Positions 11,766 to 41,100 of a DNA stretch of 64,000 bases are shown here, piece after piece. Below the pieces are notes generated by a model. It worked only from the letters and a program-made list of their open reading frames with translations. It was not told where the DNA came from and ran no database searches. This DNA is from a virus, in the IMG/VR virus record IMGVR_UViG_3300031999_000005, positions 39,757-103,756 of that record, one strand, 5' to 3'. Both the position numbers and the translations under genes were made by a program. Within the stretch, counting starts at the first letter, position 1; each line of letters begins with the position of its first letter.

Positions 11766-12326
11766 ATGCCGCCCAACGTCCTTGCCTCGCCTGTCCACCG
11801 ATTTCGCTATGCTCGGGCACGAAGCGGGATGACCATTGAGGACATCGCCGCACAGGATCATGTGTCCGTCGATACGGTCAGAACCTCCATCAAGGCGGTC
11901 GAAATTCGCAAGCAACTGTGCAGCATTCATGAGGTAGAGACGGCGGAGGCGCAATTGCTGCTCGACACGATTCCCTTGCAACAGAAGGCTCTTACAGAGG
12001 CCCTGGTTGCCACGCAGATCGTCATGGGAACGAAGGGAAGGGTCAAAGAGGTTCCTGACCACACCACCCGGATGCGCGCTGTTGACGTGCTGACACAGAA
12101 ATCCGCATCGCTCCGACCGCAGGTAAAGATCGCCCCGACCACTCAGGTGAACGTCAACACCGGGAACCAAACACTGGTAAACGGCATGACGTTTGAAGAC
12201 CGGGTGCGGCAGATCGTGGAAAAACGCCGAGAAGCTGAGACCGTGCCTGCGCTGGCCGCCCCAGTTGATTTGGGCGGCTACATCGAGGCTGAACCCGAAG
12301 GGGATGTCGATGGCGATAAGCCGTAA
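11766..12326 (+). CDS. terminase small subunit (putative)
   Basis: A 186-aa protein directly upstream of TerL and overlapping it. The N-terminus has a helix-turn-helix-like segment (MTIEDIAAQDHVSVDTVRTS), as expected for the DNA-recognising subunit. A helical middle (LLLDTIPLQQKALTEALVAT) and an acidic end follow. The identification rests on HTH plus position; sequence identity to known TerS cannot be judged here. No good ribosome binding site precedes the ATG. Confidence 0.65.
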   Translation: MPPNVLASPVHRFRYARARSGMTIEDIAAQDHVSVDTVRTSIKAVEIRKQLCSIHEVETAEAQLLLDTIPLQQKALTEALVATQIVMGTKGRVKEVPDHTTRMRAVDVLTQKSASLRPQVKIAPTTQVNVNTGNQTLVNGMTFEDRVRQIVEKRREAETVPALAAPVDLGGYIEAEPEGDVDGDKP

Positions 12327-15300
12327 AGACCCCTACCTGAACGAAATCCTCGAAATCCTGGACATGATCTACGATCAGGCAGGGAATGACATCGCTCGGG
12401 CCTATTCGAGCCTCGGCACGCACGAACTGAAATTCATCGAGGAAGAAACCACCCGTTGCGCTGACTGGCGGTACTACGTCGAAAATTATCACATCATCCG
12501 CACCGTGGACGGGAATCTTCAGACGCTCTATCCACTGTGGGACAGCCAGGAAATCTTTTATGAACCGGTGCTTCTAGCGCAGAGAGCACACCTGCCGGTT
12601 CGGATAATTACGCTCAAGGCAAGGCGACTCGGCCTCTCGACAGAATGTCAATCGCTGATCTTCCATAAAACCATCTTCACCCATAATTGGGATTCGCTGA
12701 TCGTTGCGCAGGACCCTGACCAGACAGCGTACCTTTTTGAGATGAGCCGGCTCGCCTACGAGAAATTGCCCTGGTGGATGCGGCCTGAATCGCGGTATGA
12801 CGTGAAGGGCACCCAATTGGTGTTTGACCGCAAGGACCCGAAGGAACGTTTGCTGCATCCGGGTTTGCGCTCACAGATCATGGTTGCCTCAGCTAATAAA
12901 ATGTCAGGAATTTCTGTGGGTAAGGCGCTCATGTCAACGCACCTGTGCCTGACTAAAGAAAACTATGTGTTGCGACAGGATGGGAAGATAACCCCGATCT
13001 CAGAAATAAAGGTTGGTGACAGGGTTGAATCCCGTTGCGGACCTGTCCCGGTGTCTTTCGTGTCTTTCAGGGAATCAGATGCTAATGTCAGTGTCACGCC
13101 TTGGTGCAATTCTGCATTTCCGATCATCGGCACACCGAACCACCGCATTCTCTGTGGGGAACTCGTCAAGAAGCAAATTGCCGGAAAGCGGGGACCTGCA
13201 ATAAGGAATATCCGGTGGGTAGAACTGGGCAAGGTGTCGCTGAAAGATTGTCTAGTGATTCCAGTAAAGAAAATTTCTGACACACGAGAGTTGCCTGTGG
13301 CACGTTTGCCCGAGTCATTCCGTCGAAAACATGGAGGAGGCTCGATCCCGCTCCCGATCAGTCCACAGAAAACCAGAGAATGGGGATTTGCCATTGGCCT
13401 TTATCTGGCCGAGGGAAGCATCGAAAAGGCAAAAGTCATAATCAGTCTCGACAAAAAAGAGAATGGGTTGGCTAGTCGCTTTTCAAGGGCAATCGGAGTC
13501 GCTGAAGGGAAAGTGGGAAAGTCCCGAAAAACAAGGACCAGGGTGCATCGTTTCTATAATGCTGCGTTGGCTACGTGGCTTGCTGACAATTTCGGGCATC
13601 ATGGAGAAAAGATCATCCCCGATTGGGCATGGGAGACGGGCCGCGACTTTTTGCTGGGGATTATCGAAGGTCTGATGCTCGGAGACGGCCACTTCCCGCT
13701 CAAAAATAGAGAGTGCATATTTTGCTCCATCTGTCCACAGTTGTCGATCCGCCTGCGAGACGCCGTAGCGTCATTGGGGATCGGTTACGGTTCGCTGTAT
13801 CTCAGGAAAGCTGGAATTCGATACGGGAGAAACTGCAAGAATGCTTGGTTGACCCATTTTGCGATGAAAACAAATGATTCGCTTCGCCTACTCTTTGGGA
13901 TCAAGCCATCTAGAAAGGTCCAGAGACATCATGGTAAGCACTGGTATTATTCCTTGAACAGATCAGAGATTTACGTGCGTCTGCGAAAAATAGAAGAGGT
14001 CCTCGGTGATACGGTCTATGACATTGAGGTCGATTCCCCAAACCACGAATTTTTGCTTCCTGGAGCCGTTACACACAATTCAGAATTGAGCCTCTGGCCT
14101 GATCCCAAGAAGCTGGCCGAGTATCTTTTCCCGACGATGGAGAGCAACCAGGGTTTGTACTTCATGGAATCCACGTCGCGTGGTCGGCATGGATTCTGGC
14201 CGCGATTCTGGAAAAAATCGGTGCGGCGGGAAACTAACTGGACCCCTGTTTTTATTGAGTCATTCCGGGTGAGGAAGTATTCGATCCCAATTGACGCAGG
14301 TGAGAATTTCGTGCTGACGGCTGAAGAAAAGGCCATCCGCGACAAGGTTTTGAGGCAGCGGAAAGTCGAAATCCCCCTGGAGCATTTCAAGTGGCGCCGG
14401 AAGACAATCCAGGACTTTGTTGCGGCAAATGGCGATGATTCGATGTACTACCAGGAATTCCCGGCCACGAGTCCTTCAGAATCATTCGTGGGCACTGGCT
14501 TGTGTGCGTTTGACAAGAAAAAACTTCAGCGGATCAGGGAAGAAACGTGTTGCGATCCAATCTGGTTTGGTGAGATTCGCCTGGAAAAGAAAAAGCCGCG
14601 AGCCATCCTGTACGAATCTGCCAAGGCTGCACATATTCCTCCGCAGACAGTGGAAGGTGGTCGGTTATACGTTTGGGAGATGCCCGAGCCGAAGGAAATC
14701 TACTATGTGTCAGGTGACGTGGCCGAAGGAATCATCGGAGGTAATTTCTCGGATGCGCAGGTGCTTCGCAAGGGGAAGGGACCGGCTCCAGATGTGCAGG
14801 TAGCCGAATGGCACGGGTGGATCAGCCCAGAGGAATTCGCTGAAGTTTTGGCCGCCCTGGGGATGCTCTACAACAATGCTGAAATAGCGCCGGAAACCAA
14901 CGCGAAGTGTGGTGGACTGATGATCGGGCACCTCTCGCGGGTGGTTGAATACGAGAACATTTTCCGGTGGAAGCATTACGACAAAGTGAAAAACCAGCGG
15001 ACGAACTACCTTGGTTGGGCCACGAACACCAAGAGCCGAGCGGACATCATTGCTAAGGGAACCCGTGCGGTCAGAGAGGGCCTAGTGATAATCCGCAGCG
15101 AGGAGTTGGTCGAGGAAATGTTCGATTTCGCCAGCACTGATGACTCGGTGAAGATCGAGGGCCAGGACAACTGGGATGATCGTGTGATGAGTTTCCTAAT
15201 TGGCTATTTCTGTGCGCACGATTCAGACGAATACACGGACTACGGAAAAAGCAGCGAACCAGAAAAGGACAGAGGGCGAGATTTCTACAACACCGAATCC

Positions 15301-15435
15301 TGTGCGCCTTGTACCAATCGACCACCGAGCCAGACGGTCTTCCACGATCAAAAAATGCCATCGGACATGAGCCTGTACTTGGCGAATGCACCGATGCCTG
15401 AAGGAGATGACAACGAACTGTGGAAGAGGTTATAA
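12310..15435 (+). CDS. terL: terminase large subunit, intein-containing precursor
   Basis: A 1041-aa precursor; removing the intein (residues 213-590) leaves about 663 aa, normal for TerL. The N-extein has the Walker A-like LKARRLGLST near residue 102 and the motif QDPDQTAYLFEMSR. After splicing the sequence reads KALMSTHL-SELSLWPDPKKL, placing the intein at the Walker B/catalytic Glu. The C-terminal nuclease part includes YYVSGDVAEGIIGGNFSDAQ near residue 800. The start at 12310 follows AAGGGG by 6 nt and overlaps TerS. It packages DNA at the portal. Confidence 0.9.
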   Translation: MAISRKDPYLNEILEILDMIYDQAGNDIARAYSSLGTHELKFIEEETTRCADWRYYVENYHIIRTVDGNLQTLYPLWDSQEIFYEPVLLAQRAHLPVRIITLKARRLGLSTECQSLIFHKTIFTHNWDSLIVAQDPDQTAYLFEMSRLAYEKLPWWMRPESRYDVKGTQLVFDRKDPKERLLHPGLRSQIMVASANKMSGISVGKALMSTHLCLTKENYVLRQDGKITPISEIKVGDRVESRCGPVPVSFVSFRESDANVSVTPWCNSAFPIIGTPNHRILCGELVKKQIAGKRGPAIRNIRWVELGKVSLKDCLVIPVKKISDTRELPVARLPESFRRKHGGGSIPLPISPQKTREWGFAIGLYLAEGSIEKAKVIISLDKKENGLASRFSRAIGVAEGKVGKSRKTRTRVHRFYNAALATWLADNFGHHGEKIIPDWAWETGRDFLLGIIEGLMLGDGHFPLKNRECIFCSICPQLSIRLRDAVASLGIGYGSLYLRKAGIRYGRNCKNAWLTHFAMKTNDSLRLLFGIKPSRKVQRHHGKHWYYSLNRSEIYVRLRKIEEVLGDTVYDIEVDSPNHEFLLPGAVTHNSELSLWPDPKKLAEYLFPTMESNQGLYFMESTSRGRHGFWPRFWKKSVRRETNWTPVFIESFRVRKYSIPIDAGENFVLTAEEKAIRDKVLRQRKVEIPLEHFKWRRKTIQDFVAANGDDSMYYQEFPATSPSESFVGTGLCAFDKKKLQRIREETCCDPIWFGEIRLEKKKPRAILYESAKAAHIPPQTVEGGRLYVWEMPEPKEIYYVSGDVAEGIIGGNFSDAQVLRKGKGPAPDVQVAEWHGWISPEEFAEVLAALGMLYNNAEIAPETNAKCGGLMIGHLSRVVEYENIFRWKHYDKVKNQRTNYLGWATNTKSRADIIAKGTRAVREGLVIIRSEELVEEMFDFASTDDSVKIEGQDNWDDRVMSFLIGYFCAHDSDEYTDYGKSSEPEKDRGRDFYNTESCAPCTNRPPSQTVFHDQKMPSDMSLYLANAPMPEGDDNELWKRL
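12946..14079 (+). mobile_element. LAGLIDADG intein inside TerL
   Basis: A 378-aa in-frame insertion. Block A is CLTKENYVLRQDGKI followed by VGDRV, with the first residue Cys. Block B is GTPNHRILCG. Two LAGLIDADG-type motifs (FAIGLYLAEGS and LGIIEGLMLGDGHF) form a homing nuclease core. The C-terminal blocks are DTVYDIEVDSPNHEFLLPG and VTHN, with Ser as the +1 extein residue. All residues needed for canonical splicing (C1, block B T..H, HN/S) appear to be present. Confidence 0.9.
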
Positions 15436-20561: not shown

Positions 20562-21465
20562 ATGGCCTTCCCGGTGGGAGGGCCAACATACCAAATGGCA
20601 CTCACTTGGGGTGATTTAACTTCAAAAACCAATAGCCATATCGTGCCACGCTTGATTGACACGATCTACCGCACGTCCGCTCTGCTGACGCGCATCAGGA
20701 CGCGCAACACCGAGCGGTTCGAAGGCGGGGATTCTCTCAAGGTTCCCATCATGCACGCCGAACTGAAGGGCGGTCCCTTCACTCGCGGCGGCACCTTCGA
20801 TTGCTCGTATGTCGAGTCCGATACGGCCCTCAATTTCTTGATGAAGCCGTATTACGTCAACGTTTCCATCTACGGCCTGGACTGTGCGCTGAACCGCGGT
20901 CCCGAAGCCGCAATGACGATCATTGACTCGAAGATGGCGAACGCCGGCGGGAAGATGGCGAAGTTGCTGGCAACCGATATGTACCTGGACGGCCAGGGCA
21001 CCGCTTCTTCGGCCATCGCATTGGATGGATTTTCCGGAGCCCTAGACGATGGAAGTAATTTTCCAGTTTACGGCCAAATCACCCGGACGGATCTTTCCGC
21101 CACGGCGAACACCGGCATCAACGCCTACTACAAGGTGGTGGCCACGCTGTCCCTGAAGGAAGTGCAGACGGCCTTCGGAAGCACGTGGTTCGGCGGAGAA
21201 CACGCGGATCTGCTCACCACCACCCAGGCCGTGTGGGACATCTGGTGGAACAAACTGCAACCGCAACAGCGGTTCAACGAAGAGTCCAGCGATGTGGGCA
21301 AAATCGGCTTTCAATCGTTCAGGTACAATTCCGCTCAGGTAGTGGTTGACCAGCATTGCCCAGCGGGCAAACTCTGGTTCCTGAACATGAAGTACGTGAA
21401 CCTGTACCTGAGCACGATGCCGCAATTCCAGTTCGGGTTCACAGGATCAACTTTCGGTCCCCTTT
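20562..21465 (+). CDS. major capsid protein, 5' exon
   Basis: The first 301 codons of the major capsid protein, following the scaffold. Typical wording includes LTSKTNSHIVPRLIDTIYRT, IYGLDCALNRGPEA, ADLLTTTQAVWDIWW and VVDQHCPAGKLWFLNMKY, then QFQFGFTG. Unspliced, the frame runs only to a stop at 21498-21500 and lacks the usual C-terminus, which is found at 22617-22726. Spliced length would be 337 aa. AGGAGG touches the ATG at 20562, an unusually tight spacing; ATG 20595 is an alternative. Confidence 0.85.
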
Positions 21466-22616
21466 CAAGCACCGTCAGCGAAGGAATGACGGTAAACTAG
21501 GAAGGAAAATTCTGCTATATGCTGGGACAACAGGTCATGCCGAGCTACTTACAAGGTAAAAAGGCGACGGATAATCCTGTCAATCAGCAAGGAAGAATCG
21601 TTCAAATTGCTCGTCTCGCAGGAATCTTTGATTGCGAGGGATGCTTCTACCTGAACCGCTATGGTCGGTCTCATGATTGCTATTCCGTGGTTGCGAGAGT
21701 CAGCAACTCGAATATGCGGATCATCGAGGAAGTTTGCTCTACACTGTCGGTTCTGGGTTTCAAGTACAACAGAACTGATGGTCTGCCGACAGGAATGGGC
21801 GGTCGGGTGTCGGAAATTAGGCTGCATGGGACAAAGAGGGCGAAGCCGCTTATCGAACTCATCGCCCCGTATCTGTCAGCCAAATCCCGCGTTACTGACC
21901 TTCTGAAGATGTTTTGGGAACGCAGAGATTCAGTAGCGTATGGGGCATCCTACACAGAAGAAGATTTCAGAATTCACCGGGCTGTCCGGGCAGTCAATTC
22001 CAACGGCACAGCAAAGGACATACCCGTTGGAGATCATCTGGAATTGGTTGGACCGTCGAGAGTAGCACGGCTTGGAGAGGTGGAAGCGAAAGCCAAACTT
22101 GCAGCCATCGTGGAATGCGATGGTTCTCTCGGCCTGACTAATCTGAGGAATGGGGAGAACTACATGCCAGCGATTTACATGGTGAACACGAACGAATCTT
22201 TGCTTGCAGAGATTCGTCAATCACTGGCTATGCTTGGAATTCCCTACTACTTCCAGATGAGACCGCCACGAGGCATTTCGATCAAGGCCATCGGTGAATT
22301 CCACATTCAGGGAATGAAGCGTGCCAAGCGGTTCCTGGATGCCATAGGTGATTATTTCGTAGCCTACGCGGAACGGGCAAAATTGATTCGGCAATTCATC
22401 AATCGTCGGCTTTCTCTCCCGGCCAACTATCCGTATTCGGAAGTTGAGCGGGAGATCAAGAGGGCCTTGGACGAAGAGAAACCGAAGAGCGATTCCCTTC
22501 AACGACTGCACGCAGAACCGGGCAAGTCCCGGATGATACAGTCTGTTCTGCATGGAGACATGCAGACGGCGGCAGAAATGACCGCCGCGCTCGCGTAAGC
22601 GAGAGGTAACAGCAAG
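21466..22616 (+). mobile_element. group I intron in the major capsid gene
   Basis: The intron separates two capsid exons. P1: exon CCTTT(C) at 21461-21466 pairs with GGAAGG at 21500-21505, with the expected U-G at the splice site. R/S core: TTCAACGACTGCACG (22498-22512) and ATGATACAGTCTG, whose GACTG (22504-22508) and CAGTC (22539-22543) form P7. P8 is CCGGG/CCCGG (22518-22532). CTCGC-GTAA-GCGAG (22590-22603) is a GNRA-capped hairpin near the 3' end. Boundaries were placed to end in G and keep the reading frame and may shift by a few bases. Confidence 0.75.
21519..22598 (+). CDS. LAGLIDADG homing endonuclease (intron-encoded)
   Basis: A 359-aa protein with two LAGLIDADG motifs, IARLAGIFDCEGCFYLNR near residue 30 and KAKLAAIVECDGSLGLTN near residue 195, so it would act as a monomer. 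It fills nearly the whole intron, and its last ~35 codons also encode the P7/P8 core. AGGAAGG lies upstream of ATG 21519. It would cut an intron-less capsid gene to spread the intron; a maturase role is possible in this family. Confidence 0.85.
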   Translation: MLGQQVMPSYLQGKKATDNPVNQQGRIVQIARLAGIFDCEGCFYLNRYGRSHDCYSVVARVSNSNMRIIEEVCSTLSVLGFKYNRTDGLPTGMGGRVSEIRLHGTKRAKPLIELIAPYLSAKSRVTDLLKMFWERRDSVAYGASYTEEDFRIHRAVRAVNSNGTAKDIPVGDHLELVGPSRVARLGEVEAKAKLAAIVECDGSLGLTNLRNGENYMPAIYMVNTNESLLAEIRQSLAMLGIPYYFQMRPPRGISIKAIGEFHIQGMKRAKRFLDAIGDYFVAYAERAKLIRQFINRRLSLPANYPYSEVEREIKRALDEEKPKSDSLQRLHAEPGKSRMIQSVLHGDMQTAAEMTAALA

Positions 22617-22726
22617 GGAAGGAAAATCAATTCTCGATTGATGTGGCCGGGCAGTACCTGTTCCTTGGCAACATCGTCGTAACCGCGCCTCGGCTGATGG
22701 CGCAGATAAGTGGAATAACTGGTTGA
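22617..22726 (+). CDS. major capsid protein, 3' exon
   Basis: The frame reads KENQFSIDVAGQYLFLGN, then IVVTAPRLMAQISGITG-stop, the C-terminal consensus of this capsid family (DVAGQ..F.GNL.V.APRL). It has no start of its own. Joined to the 5' exon at 21465 it gives a continuous 338-codon frame. Confidence 0.75.
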
Positions 22727-22756: not shown

Positions 22757-23437
22757 ATGGCAGCTTGCTTAACACTGGGTCAAGCCGGGGTATATAGAGT
22801 GATGGCGGAACTCTTGCTCCGCGGTCACAGGCCGTACATTCCGGCAGTGGACGATCATGGTGTTGATTTGGCTCTTTCCACTGGAGTCAGAATACAGGTC
22901 AAGACGGCTCGTCTCCACACCAGGAAGAATTGGCCGAGAAAGCCAATCTACCATCTGACATTTGGATGGGCACAGATAGGCCGGACGCACATTCCTATCC
23001 GCAGAAAGAAGAATTACAGTTCAGAATGCGATTTTCTCATCATCTACGGTGTTGATGAAAACCGCTTTTGGATTGTTCCTAGCTTCCTGTTGGACGGGAG
23101 AACATGCCTGATGCTTGGACCCCGATGCCGAGTTGTTCGTGGGCAGATAGAGGAACTTCTCGATGTCGGGGTGACGAGAATCGAGGCAGCGAGGAAACTC
23201 GGCGTTGATCGGCATACCATCACAAGGCGGTTGAAGGGCGAGGGAACGAAAAATGGCGGCTTTGTGAGATCAGTCAGAATGTGCGAAGACCAATGGGGAC
23301 TTTTGGGTTCTCCAGTTTTCGCTCCATTCGTGGGGAACCCGCCCAGTCTTCCAGGCGGTGAGACGGCCCAACAGAAAACAAGAGAGGAAACACAATGTCA
23401 GTCGCTGTCACTAACAACAATCTGCCATACCTCCTGA
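22757..23437 (+). CDS. PD-(D/E)XK homing-type endonuclease
   Basis: A 226-aa protein. GQAGVYRVMAELLLRGHRPY, then HGVDLALSTGVRIQVKTARL, shows the D...(Q)VK active-site pattern of group I-intron-type PD-(D/E)XK nucleases. Residues about 130-160 (GVTRIEAARKLGVDRHTITR) form an HTH. It stands between the capsid 3' exon and the next virion gene. Its last ~45 codons read into the leader and first codons of that gene (23395), suggesting insertion. GGGAG precedes ATG 22757. Confidence 0.7.
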   Translation: MAACLTLGQAGVYRVMAELLLRGHRPYIPAVDDHGVDLALSTGVRIQVKTARLHTRKNWPRKPIYHLTFGWAQIGRTHIPIRRKKNYSSECDFLIIYGVDENRFWIVPSFLLDGRTCLMLGPRCRVVRGQIEELLDVGVTRIEAARKLGVDRHTITRRLKGEGTKNGGFVRSVRMCEDQWGLLGSPVFAPFVGNPPSLPGGETAQQKTREETQCQSLSLTTICHTS

Positions 23438-23979
23438 TTCCCGAGATTTCAACCGGCAACGTTGCGACCGTCAACGATGCCTACAGCACCACAATCAGCG
23501 CCGCAAACCCCTACGGGAACGGCGCAAAGAATGCACCTGGCGCAGCGTTTTACGCAGCCGATTCGGCTGGCCGGGTTGCCAAGTACCGCTACGTGCGGCT
23601 TTACCCAGGCACGCCACCGGGGGCCTACATCGTGGGGCCGGTTTACTGGAAGGACAACACGTTCACCATCGTGACCACCACGCTGTCCAACGCTGTGACG
23701 GCCGAGGCAAGCGCCTTTGCCGGCATCCTGCTGCGGGCAGAGGCCACACCGGCACTGATGACCGGCAACTGGGTGGTGATCCTGGTTCGCGGGTTCCTTG
23801 CTGCTCTCGTTGTCGCGGCCAGCCCTACCGCAGGCGATGAAGTATACGGGACGGCTGGTGATCAGATACTTAACGGCAAGGTGACCAGCGGCACGGCGCC
23901 GAAATTCCCTGGTCATGACATCCGGGCGCTGACCACCAGTGCCACGCCCGATGTCTGGGTTGAAGCCGAGGGTGCGTAA
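23395..23979 (+). CDS. virion protein, tandem pair A copy 1 (possible head decoration)
   Basis: A 194-aa protein, MSVAVTNNNLPYLLIPEIST onward, very similar along its whole length to the next gene (shared GNGAKN.PGAAFYAADSAGR, TAPKFPGHD.RA and VWVEAEGA-type end). It follows the capsid gene, where decoration or head-completion proteins usually lie. The leader (GAGAGGAAACACAATG) is nearly the same as that of copy 2. Confidence 0.65.
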   Translation: MSVAVTNNNLPYLLIPEISTGNVATVNDAYSTTISAANPYGNGAKNAPGAAFYAADSAGRVAKYRYVRLYPGTPPGAYIVGPVYWKDNTFTIVTTTLSNAVTAEASAFAGILLRAEATPALMTGNWVVILVRGFLAALVVAASPTAGDEVYGTAGDQILNGKVTSGTAPKFPGHDIRALTTSATPDVWVEAEGA

Positions 23980-23995
23980 ACGGGGTGACCTGATT

Positions 23996-24029
23996 CCAAG
24001 GGGTGGGCCTAACTAGCCTTTCCCCTTGG
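23996..24029 (+). other. intergenic hairpin
   Basis: CCAAGGGG (23996-24003) and CCCCTTGG (24022-24029) form a perfect 8-bp stem in the gap before pair A copy 2. There is no T-run. Comparable hairpins lie near 24665 and 25183. Confidence 0.6.
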
Positions 24030-24062
24030 GGCCGGGACACAACCAAAAGAGAGGACAACACA

Positions 24063-24650
24063 ATGGCAGTAGCAGTGACGAACAACAACATCCCGTACCT
24101 CCTCGAACCCGAGATCAGCACCGGCAACATCGCCACCGTCAATGACGCTTACAGCACGACCAAGAGCGCGGCCAACCCTTACGGGAATGGCGCGAAGAAC
24201 CAGCCGGGAGCGGCATTCTACGCTGCTGACTCGGCTGGCCGAATTCTGAAATGCCGCTACGTGCGGCTCAATCCAGGCACCCCGCCGGCATCCTACAAGG
24301 TCGGCGTTGTCTACTGGCAGGATGCTGCCCGGACGATTGTAACCACCACACTCTCGAATTCACTCACAGCCGAGGCATCTTCCCTCGCTGGCGTTTTGCT
24401 ACGAGCTGATGCGACCCCCGCAAACATGACGGGGAATTGGGTGGTGATCGTAACGCATGGCTTTGTCGCGGGTGTTTTCGCCGTCGCTGCCACTGCGGCA
24501 GGCGATGAACTCTTCGGCGATACGGGCGATCAGGTCGTGGACCGGGTAGCCACTGGCACGGCACCGAAATTCCCAGGGCACGATCTCCGGGCCATCACCG
24601 CAGTTGCGGCTGGTGTGTCAGATGTTTGGGTGGACGCGGAGGGCGCGTAA
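24063..24650 (+). CDS. virion protein, tandem pair A copy 2
   Basis: A 195-aa paralogue of the preceding gene, starting MAVAVTNNNIPYLLEPEIST. Copies diverge mainly in the middle (VVYWQDAARTIVTTTLSNSL versus the VYWKDNTFTIV form), so both are probably maintained. The start at 24063 follows GAGAGGACAACACA. Function as in copy 1. Confidence 0.65.
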   Translation: MAVAVTNNNIPYLLEPEISTGNIATVNDAYSTTKSAANPYGNGAKNQPGAAFYAADSAGRILKCRYVRLNPGTPPASYKVGVVYWQDAARTIVTTTLSNSLTAEASSLAGVLLRADATPANMTGNWVVIVTHGFVAGVFAVAATAAGDELFGDTGDQVVDRVATGTAPKFPGHDLRAITAVAAGVSDVWVDAEGA

Positions 24651-24715
24651 AATCTTCTTTTTCGCCAGGGGCGGGGTGACTCGCCTTTGGCGGAGAAGAG
24701 AGGAGAAAAACGACA

Positions 24716-25177
24716 ATGGCTGTAACCATCAATAAAGTCGCGGATGGAGAGTGGTCGCTCGGCAACAAGATTGCCGTGATCGTGGATCTTTCATCAATCA
24801 CCTACGTTGCTGGCGGGGTGCCAATCGCCGCTGGAGACGTGGGTTTGGGCAAGATCCTCGGCGCTCAAATCCTTGGAGGCAGCGCTGAGTCCGCTGTCCT
24901 GAACTGGTTCTGGGACACCACCAACCTCAAACTGATGGCCACCTTCCCTACCGGGGGTGCAACAGTGCCAGTAACACTGATTCCCCCTGTTGCCACTGCA
25001 TCGGCGGTTTCGGGAGCTTGTACCGCTGGCATAGCAACGGCTTCAGCGGTCAATGCTGTCACACCGGCTATTACGGGTACCGCAGCGGCTCAAGTTCTGG
25101 TGGCCGGAGTGAGCAAAGAACCTGGAGCCATTGCCCTCAGCGCTTGCAGGCTGCGGGTAATGTTCATTGGCTACTAA
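24716..25177 (+). CDS. virion protein, tandem pair B copy 1
   Basis: A 153-aa protein (MAVTINKVADGEWSLGNKIA, then VGLGKILGAQILGGSAESAV and LNWFWDTTNLKLMATFP). It is mainly beta with an Ala/Thr/Val-rich middle. It is highly similar to the next gene. A capsid or neck surface role is inferred from position only. GAGAGGAG precedes the start. Confidence 0.6.
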   Translation: MAVTINKVADGEWSLGNKIAVIVDLSSITYVAGGVPIAAGDVGLGKILGAQILGGSAESAVLNWFWDTTNLKLMATFPTGGATVPVTLIPPVATASAVSGACTAGIATASAVNAVTPAITGTAAAQVLVAGVSKEPGAIALSACRLRVMFIGY

Positions 25178-25224
25178 TCCCTCCTGCTGCGGGCGCAGGA
25201 TCGAGATAGAGGAGGAAAACGGCA

Positions 25225-25686
25225 ATGGCAGTGACTATCACCAAAGTCGCAGATGGCGAGTGGTCTATCGGCAATAAAATCGGCGTGATCGTAGACCTTT
25301 CAGCGATCACCTACGTTTCTAGCGGGGTGCCAATTGCTGCCGGGGATGTGGGTCTGGGAAAGATTCTCGGGGCACAGATTCTCGGAGGCAGCGCTACTGC
25401 TGCGCTCTTAAATTGGTTTTGGGACTCCACCAATCTCAAGTTGATGGCGTTCTTCCCGACTGGAGGCGCGTCAACGCCGGGCACGTTGATTGCTCCTGTG
25501 CTTACTGCATCGTCAGTTACAGGAAATTGTACCGCTGGCGGGCAGACGGCCTCGTCAGTCGATGCTACGACGCCGACCATCGCCGGTACCGCAGTAGCTC
25601 AAGCGCTGGTGGCCGGTGTGGGCAAGGAATCTGGGGCCATCGCCCTCACCAACTGCACGGTGCGGGTGATGTTCATTGGTTACTAA
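25225..25686 (+). CDS. virion protein, tandem pair B copy 2
   Basis: A 153-aa paralogue of the same length as copy 1 (MAVTITKVADGEWSIGNKIG, ending TVRVMFIGY as RLRVMFIGY does in copy 1). GAGGAGG precedes the start. A short hairpin (CCTGC/GCAGG) lies in the gap before it. Confidence 0.6.
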   Translation: MAVTITKVADGEWSIGNKIGVIVDLSAITYVSSGVPIAAGDVGLGKILGAQILGGSATAALLNWFWDSTNLKLMAFFPTGGASTPGTLIAPVLTASSVTGNCTAGGQTASSVDATTPTIAGTAVAQALVAGVGKESGAIALTNCTVRVMFIGY

Positions 25687-38109: not shown

Positions 38110-41100
38110 TTGGCCGAATTCAAGACACAACCGATACTGTTCCACAACAAGGGCCTGCTGGCCCGTGTAGCTGTAGACCAAGCTCCGCCCGATACTTACC
38201 TGAATCTGCTGAACATCGAATCACGAGAAGAGAACGCCCTAGCATCCAGATTTGGACGTTCGGTCATCACCAAGAACACCACAAGCCATCAGAATCTTCC
38301 ACTCTATTCAGCCGGCCTAGCGCCGCTTCCTGTGTTGTCCATGCACCGGATGGTTTACCAGACCAGCAAATACCGGTATGCTGCAACGAGCCGTCGCCTT
38401 TACAGGAGTACAAAGATTGATGACACGTCGGGAGCCTATACCCCGATCAACGGGCACAAATCCGGTGTGGTTAATGTTGATGCTACTGGAAAGATTGTGA
38501 CTTGGGTATCGGGGGACACATTCAGCACCGCATGGGTCGGGATGCTGATATGGATTACGGGGGGCTATTATCAGGTAGCGCACGTTGTCAGCGCGACCAC
38601 ATTGTACTTGGCCGGTGGCCCCGCAGGTCCCCTAACCGGAGCAACCTACGATTTGGACGAAATGGGGATCTACGGGAACCCGACATTTTCCGCGAATTTC
38701 AGACCGGATATGTCGTCGGCACCGTACATCTTCTTTGCTGATTGGTACCAGATGCTGAAGGACACCGGTGCCCTGGCATCGACGCAGCGATGGGGCATCT
38801 TTGCGCCAACGCGCCCAGTAACCACGCAGTTAACTTCTCCTGCGGCCACGATCATTGAGGACTTTGACTTTCTTGGGGACTTGGCGATTACCGGAGTCAT
38901 CACTCCAGCGATCGTAGCGAAAATACCGGCAGCGGCGCAACTCAATCCCGCAGGAGCGGCGATATCGGCTGGACAAATATCCACGGTGACACCCACGGCT
39001 GGTGCGATGGTGGCAATTCAACCGGGAGCACTAATTAGGGTCGATGCGACCCTTGGAACCCAAGAGGATATTCTCGTTATTTCCACCACATCCTCGACCT
39101 TCACGGCCTACTTCTACTATACGCATGTGGCGACATCGACAATCGACGAAACAGAAGTCATGGGAGGTATCCCGGCTGGCACCACCGGGACGATTACCAG
39201 GGCAGTGATTACTCCAGTGATTGATCTCGGCCAGATGCGTTACCCGCCATTTCCATCTGGAACGATTGCTTCTGCCGGGGGGGATGATCGGCTTCACTTC
39301 CACTTGCAGGGCATTGTCTCATCGGGGATAGTGATTACCGCAGAGGCTGCTGCTGATCCCGCTGGGTTCACTTCGGTTGCACACGGCTTGGTGGACGGGA
39401 ACACCATCGAAATCAGCAACTATACAGGTTTGTGGTTGCCAGCCAATGGAGTCTGGACGGTCACGGTGACTGGTCCAGATACGTTCACGGTGCCGTTGGA
39501 TGCTTCTGGTTTTGGAGCGTCAGCGGACACTCCAACATGGGCCATTGTCTCTGCCAGTGCGGCAGGAGCCATTTCAAAGATCGAGATTTCCATGGATGTG
39601 GGCGACGGTTCTTTCACCGAGGACTTCTACATCAAGACCATCGACAATCCTGAATCAACGATGGTCGAAATTCAATTCAAGGACTTTGTGGCCCACGGTC
39701 TAGCAGGGGAAGTTGGGCATACATTTTGGAATGTACTCTGCTGGCGAATTGCCATTACGGCGGCGGTGCCCTGCACGATTTACCTGAGCGAATTCTATGA
39801 ACACGGTGGGACCGGCCTAGATACGACCGGCGGCGTGAAGTACGACTACCGGGTCACGTACTACGACAACAACACCGGAGCGGAATCTTCACCTTCGGTG
39901 GTGATGGCCACAGATAGTTGGCTTGATCCTCGGCGCCAGCCGGTGTTGCTCAGTTGGGTGCCCAGCCCTGATTCGCAGGTAACTCATGCACGTCCATACC
40001 GCCGTGGCGGAGTGCTCTCATCCGACTGGTACAAACTCGCGGATGTGCCGATTGGCACGAACGTGTATGAAGACAGACTTTCGGATGCCTCGATTGCGCT
40101 GAATAAACTCCTGGAAATCGACAACGATCCGCCAATCAGTTCGCTGATACCGGTTCCTGTCAACCGAGTATTGGGCGGAGCAGTGGTGGCCGGCGCGATG
40201 GCTTCGGTGGTGCCTGGTGCGGACCCAGGTGTTATGACCGGTATCTATCCGAACCAGTACCTGGACGTGGACACAGGAGATTCTTACGAATCGGTGATTG
40301 TGGAATCGACCCGGCTAACCGGCGTGGTAAACACTGTGGCTCCCGCAACCGTCGATTGGGTGAGCGGGCAAACATTCAGCACCACCTGGATCGGGAAAAC
40401 CATCAAGATCAACAACGTGAACTACGAGGTGCTCGGCGTTGCTTCCTCCATACAGTTGACCCTGACCTCCAATCCGGGAAACCAATCAGCAGTGTGGTAC
40501 GGGGTCGACTGCATCTATGCCTATTTCCAGAAGGCACACGCAGCCACGGCTATGATCTTTGCTTCGGTACGAACCGGAAAGCCGGCGGCGCTGTGTGCAT
40601 CGGCCTACGGTCGGATGTGGGTGGCCGGAGACCTGGACAATCCGCACATCCTTTATTACTCGAAACGCAATCGGCCAGAATCATTCCCTCCGCAGAACAC
40701 GCTGGAGATCGGGAACCCCTCAGATCCGATTATGGCAGTGATCGAACATCGAGGGGTTCTGCTGGTGGCCACCAAGAGCACTTGGTACTATGTCTCCTCG
40801 CCAGCCAATGCCGTTCCTTACTACACCTCAACCGGATGCCGGCATGGGTTGCTGACGTACTATGGATGGACAAAAACTGAGGCGGACATCTGGTACAAGT
40901 CCCATGGGGGAATCTACGTATTCCGCGGGATGGATGCGACCTACGTGAGCGAACCGGTGGAATGGGTGTTTCGCGGGAAGGCTCTTGGGCCAGTCGTCCC
41001 AATGGATCAAACGCAAGAACAGTCCGTTCGGATGGCGTACCACAACAACGAGGTTTACTGCTCTTATGTTGGGACGGATGGTTACGTCTACCGATTGATT

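Follow-up and report, generated by a model that had tools for sequence, protein, structure and literature searches.

Major capsid gene of a tailed phage very probably interrupted by a mobile group I intron with a LAGLIDADG gene

The major capsid gene of a tailed phage is very probably interrupted near its 3′ end by a mobile group I intron carrying a LAGLIDADG gene, in a window of 64,000 nt (positions 39,757 to 103,756 of IMG/VR record IMGVR_UViG_3300031999_000005). This assignment draws on directly observed features of the sequence, the RNA architecture, homology, and restoration of the reading frame, and splicing, cleavage, and homing would be expected from it. The features are as follows.

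20562–21465, plus strand: exon 1 of the major capsid protein gene (NF033394 capsid_maj_Podo, 1.5e-36; PHROG 9953, 3e-33)
21461–21466, plus strand: P1 5′ strand, CCUUU/C; splice-site U21465 pairs with G21501
21466–22616, plus strand: predicted group I intron, 1,151 nt
21471–21493 (21471–77/21487–93), plus strand: 7-bp hairpin inside the P1 loop
21500–21505, plus strand: internal guide sequence GGAAGG, the P1 3′ strand; the capsid stop TAG (21498–21500) touches it
21510–21515, plus strand: P3 5′ strand, pairing with 22512–22517; pseudoknot with P7
21519–22598, plus strand: LAGLIDADG homing endonuclease ORF, 359 aa (Pfam LAGLIDADG_3, 5.3e-9 in two stretches; PHROG 5046, 4e-13)
21520–24/21585–89, plus strand: P4
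21530–34/21576–80, plus strand: P5
21589–92/22496–99, plus strand: P6
21595–603/22487–95, plus strand: P6a; the loop closed by P6/P6a contains the conserved endonuclease domains
22493–22611, plus strand: 3′ half of the core (P7, P3′, P8, P9, P9.1, P9.2), covariance model R1
22504–08/22539–43, plus strand: P7
22518–22/22528–32, plus strand: P8
22548–54/22559–65, plus strand: P9
22567–72/22582–87, plus strand: P9.1
22590–94/22599–603, plus strand: P9.2 with GUAA loop
22616, plus strand: predicted terminal G (omega-G), from the frame and P1 scan
22617–22726, plus strand: exon 2, capsid C-terminus (WKENQFSIDVAGQYLFLGN...GITG; stop 22724–22726)

The whole split capsid gene occupies 20562–22726. Read without splicing, the frame runs from 20562 (with an alternative in-frame start codon at 20595) to a TAG at 21498–21500 and encodes 312 aa. 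This frame matched NCBIfam NF033394 at 126 bits (E 1.5e-36) and PHROG 9953 (major head protein) at 3e-33, reaching only profile positions 268/311 and 283/329, respectively, which bears out the claim of an earlier, sequence-only reading that the frame stops at 21500 without its C-terminus. The same reading had located the C-terminus after 22617, with a stop at 22724–22726, and joining 21465 to 22617 indeed gives a 337-aa protein that reaches both profile ends (2–309/311 in NF033394 and 5–322/329 in PHROG 9953). Exon 2 raised the two profile scores only slightly (+1.4 bits and +1.2 bits). Against an HMM of 42 Mx8-type capsids, the spliced form did no better than the unspliced one (115.6 vs. 116.0 bits); at that distance, the capsid C-terminus is poorly conserved. 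The C-terminus was therefore compared separately with 28 homolog C-termini, scoring 22.5 when joined and 1.4 when unspliced; the joined score was reached by five shuffles and four random peptides out of 500 each (about p = 0.01). These values suggest a weak homology of exon 2 to capsid homologs, and the comparison leaves the exact junction unfixed. No capsid relatives were found among the genomes and plasmids searched. Alignment to intron-less relatives had also been proposed, and no intron-less allele of the capsid gene was present among the relatives searched.

The frame holds open for 24 U...G junctions, and only 21465/22616 combines this with a full P1 and guide sequence, comprising five exon pairs that include the U·G. 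As in group I introns generally, a U·G pair (U21465·G21501) lies at the 5′ splice site, and the predicted last intron base before the 3′ splice site is a G (G22616), which the frame demands. The junction 21465/22617 and the 337-aa frame proposed in the sequence-only reading remain the preferred prediction, having the best P1 with U·G, the terminal G, and the full capsid profile span. The same intron could use different splice points, e.g., 21463/22617 or 21454/22617, given that several U...G combinations leave the frame open and the comparison with homologs favours none of them, but the restriction of a full P1 with guide sequence to 21465/22616 renders this unlikely. No P10 pairing was recognised. 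The guide-sequence stretch GGAAGGAAAAT (21500–21510) recurs as an exact repeat at the start of exon 2 (22617–22627), a possible trace of insertion or of alternative pairing. Excision via these direct repeats was rejected: the TAG stop would stay, so the capsid frame would not be restored.

A search with the Rfam model RF00028, suggested earlier as a check, gave no group I match in the window at the gathering score. A permissive scan returned a fragment at 22532–22563, the P7–P9 part, with 17.6 bits against a 50-bit cut-off (E 0.002 over the 104-kb record); the other entries from the permissive Rfam scan were set aside as chance matches to vertebrate RNAs. The score lies below the cut-off because an endonuclease insertion of ~880 nt in the P6 loop splits the catalytic core, and the gathering score is a database criterion rather than a defining property of group I introns. 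Since the model fails on a split core, IMG/VR was searched with a P7 motif (TTCAACGACTR...GATAYAGTCYG), which returned 30 loci. RF00028 matches over the cut-off were obtained in 16 of the 25 loci scanned, and relatives lacking the P6 insertion exceeded it; ten relatives also share P9, the P9.1 element GGCAGAAAUGACC, and the tail GUAACA with the window. A covariance model of the 3′ half (P7–P9.1), R1, was built from 10 IMG/VR relatives with the window excluded and matched 22493–22611 at 79.8 bits (E 2e-19), its sole match within the window. For the 5′ half (J3/4-P4-P5-P4′), a second model, likewise built without the window, matched 21505–21594 at 20.5 bits (E 8.6e-5), with a runner-up at 4.0 bits. 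The window itself supplied the motif used to retrieve the relatives, so R1 is not independent at about 20 core positions (the R and S bases); P9, P9.1, and the 5′ half do not depend on that motif. The lack of any hit to group I models, which the sequence-only reading had named as evidence against an intron, therefore holds literally at the Rfam cut-off but not for custom models.

The conserved core P3–P8 that characterises group I introns is present, with its P3/P7 pseudoknot and the R/S (P7) elements. P1, P7, P8, and the GNRA-capped (GUAA) hairpin all pair where they had been placed before; the earlier list of elements had missed P3, P4, P5, P6/P6a, P9, P9.1, and the hairpin in the P1 loop. 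P3, which played no part in any search, covaries: UUCUGC/GCAGAA in the window is matched by UCCCG/CGGGA, CCACG/CGUGG, and CGCAG/CUGCG in relatives, compensatory differences that retain five pairs with bases changed on both sides in seven relatives (L013 was unclear; L009, L014, and L030 were left out). Many compensatory changes were also seen in P9 and P9.1. After removal of the ORF, with the loop cut picked by hand, the intron folded at −105.9 kcal/mol (z = −6.03), and 0 of 200 shuffles folded as well. The R1 match and the fold z of −6 are not chance, and the independently built model upholds the original group I assignment.

The ORF within the intron agrees with the LAGLIDADG gene reported before. 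Its product carries two motifs, LAGIFDCEG at aa 33 and LAAIVECDG at aa 194, with the acidic catalytic residues present. The frame starts just past P3 and spans P4 to P9.1, ending with a TAA in the GUAA loop of P9.2; its 3′ end reads through P6′, P7, P3′, P8, P9, and P9.1, and this 3′ overlap still holds with a later translation start. As had been noted, the gene thus encodes part of the ribozyme core, which in turn specifies the last ~35 endonuclease residues. An alignment of residues 323–355 with locus L027 was rejected as protein homology, since the aligned residues are simply the ribozyme core translated in one frame at both loci. Endonuclease frames overlapping a group I core have already been described, in the Figure 2b legend of PMC3984707 and in PMC11878797. 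No PDB relative was found by sequence, tblastn in phages found none, and a search of IMG/VR matched only a near-identical virus; a single-sequence AlphaFold model, made without an alignment, had a pLDDT of 37, too low to be of use. With nearly all of the core (P4 to P9.1) lying inside the endonuclease frame, it is conceivable, though doubtful, that ribosomes translating the unspliced transcript would unfold it and so set translation against splicing; the intron might then work as a switch that holds back full-length capsid protein, or the core-encoded C-terminal tail of the endonuclease might serve as a maturase by binding the core.

The intron recurs in a second virus contig (IMGVR_UViG_3300032046_001906), which shows 95.4% identity over 14.2 kb, and is therefore not an assembly chimera. 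The 20.5–23.5 kb block differs from the second contig at one (synonymous) position, and some flanking blocks differ by 5–20%. A recent transfer by homing with co-conversion would fit this conserved island, a reading that is only suggestive because other blocks are equally conserved. The conservation also bears on whether the element is a decayed group I intron that has lost splicing, in which case the virus would rely on a 312-aa capsid protein that stops at 21500, exon 2 being a relic. The truncated frame is open and has a normal stop, and the missing C-terminus is weakly conserved among homologs, as such decay would allow. Decay is nonetheless very unlikely: the core helices are all intact, as are the P1 U·G pair and the terminal G; the R1 score on the window resembles scores of introns at other loci; exon 2 is open in the one joining frame; the endonuclease frame is unbroken and keeps its two motifs; and the block holds that single difference. 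Phages commonly carry free-standing homing endonucleases, and although this fact, the direct repeat GGAAGGAAAAT at 21500 and 22617, and the endonuclease-like gene following at 22757 would suit such a gene at the end of the capsid gene, with RNA helices that are relics or chance and no functional intron, the retention of the TAG after deletion between the repeats, the 79.8-bit covariance match, and the fold z of −6 make this exceedingly improbable.

Several neighbouring features were recorded. The ORF directly after the capsid gene (22757–23437) gave sub-threshold matches to PD-(D/E)XK endonuclease and HTH/NUMOD-like domains and is perhaps a second, free-standing homing endonuclease. It is followed at 23380–25686 by paralogous segments, 75–80% identical mutually and without PHROG matches. 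The terminase large subunit gene (12193–15435) contains an in-frame, 378-aa intein-like insertion at 12946–14079 (CLTKENYVL...GAVTHN/S) with LAGLIDADG-like motifs; no relation was detectable between its endonuclease and that of the intron.

How such elements work is well established for other group I introns. The guide GGAAGG would pair, in the pre-mRNA, with the exon 1 end CCUUU to form P1, and a guanosine bound in P7 would direct cutting after U21465. The freed exon 1 would then attack after G22616, joining the exons into a message for the 337-aa capsid protein; by established group I biology, these two transesterifications would excise 21466–22616. Unspliced RNA would yield the 312-aa truncated capsid protein and serve as the sense-direction template for the endonuclease in the P6 loop. 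The endonuclease would be expected to cleave the capsid gene of co-infecting relatives that lack the intron, and repair of the break from the intron-bearing copy would copy the intron in (homing).

Introns in phage capsid genes are already known, and the present case differs in its capsid type, its near-C-terminal site, and its full double-motif ORF. Mycobacteriophage LittleE has a probable group I intron in its major capsid gene, with splicing shown by RT-PCR and N-terminal sequencing (PMC3706429). Both cases involve a phage major capsid gene, an exon 1 ending in U, an intron ending in G, and a LAGLIDADG-type endonuclease frame. The LittleE intron is 819 bp, with the endonuclease on the opposite strand, and lies near the mature N-terminus of an HK97-type capsid, whereas that of the window is 1,151 nt, with a sense-strand ORF in P6, and lies near the C-terminus of a podovirus-type (NF033394) capsid. 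Lactococcal phage Tuc2009, likened here by description, also has an intron in a capsid subunit gene, as mentioned in PMC3706429. Within IMG/VR, locus L010 (IMGVR_UViG_3300033407_000202) likewise has a capsid gene with a PHROG 5046 LAGLIDADG ORF in the P6 loop, flanked by group I halves (R2, 30.6 bits; R1, 36.5 bits), but the gene is of the Mu gpT type, the ORF is a single-motif one of 159 aa, and the insertion site is different. Loci L014, L018, L029, and L030 belong to the same intron lineage as the window, sharing P, Q, R, S, and P9.1 "GGCAGAAAUGACC"-type elements, but have no core ORF, have a P2-like hairpin, and are inserted at one conserved GGxxVP motif of HK97-type capsid genes (by inspection in L018, L029, and L030); exon 2 of L014 matches the HK97 capsid family PF05065 (2e-34). 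The N-terminal sequence TGGYAVP reported for LittleE (PMC3706429) spans its splice site at this same GGxxVP motif, which suggests a shared homing hotspot.

Other loci are more heavily populated. In L033 (2293–9999 of IMGVR_UViG_3300032053_000045), at least 13 RF00028 group I introns (39–83 bits) and three endonuclease-like ORFs occur within 8 kb. The introns appear to break one major capsid gene, located between a prohead protease (205–1977) and head genes after 10230, into exons apparently as short as 20–90 nt (e.g., TVAGTGGDTLIPRLADF and NVYYVGEAIAAPESAMSTGTVELTAKKL); one exon piece matches the PHROG 267 major head protein (E 0.002). Two to three introns per gene are reported for Bastillevirinae in PMC11878797, and the number in L033 is far above that figure. 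Loci L016, L027, L031, and L034 each have several group I introns close together, in tandem or nested.

The window contributes a further LAGLIDADG intron, one that lies in a podovirus-type capsid gene and has its endonuclease frame on the sense strand, over almost the entire ribozyme core. Introns of this kind are missed at the standard Rfam cut-off when an insertion splits the core, and automatic annotation would give a truncated, 312-aa capsid protein with its C-terminus lost. Together with the intein-like insertion in the terminase gene of the same genome, two head and packaging genes would appear to be parasitised by different self-splicing elements.
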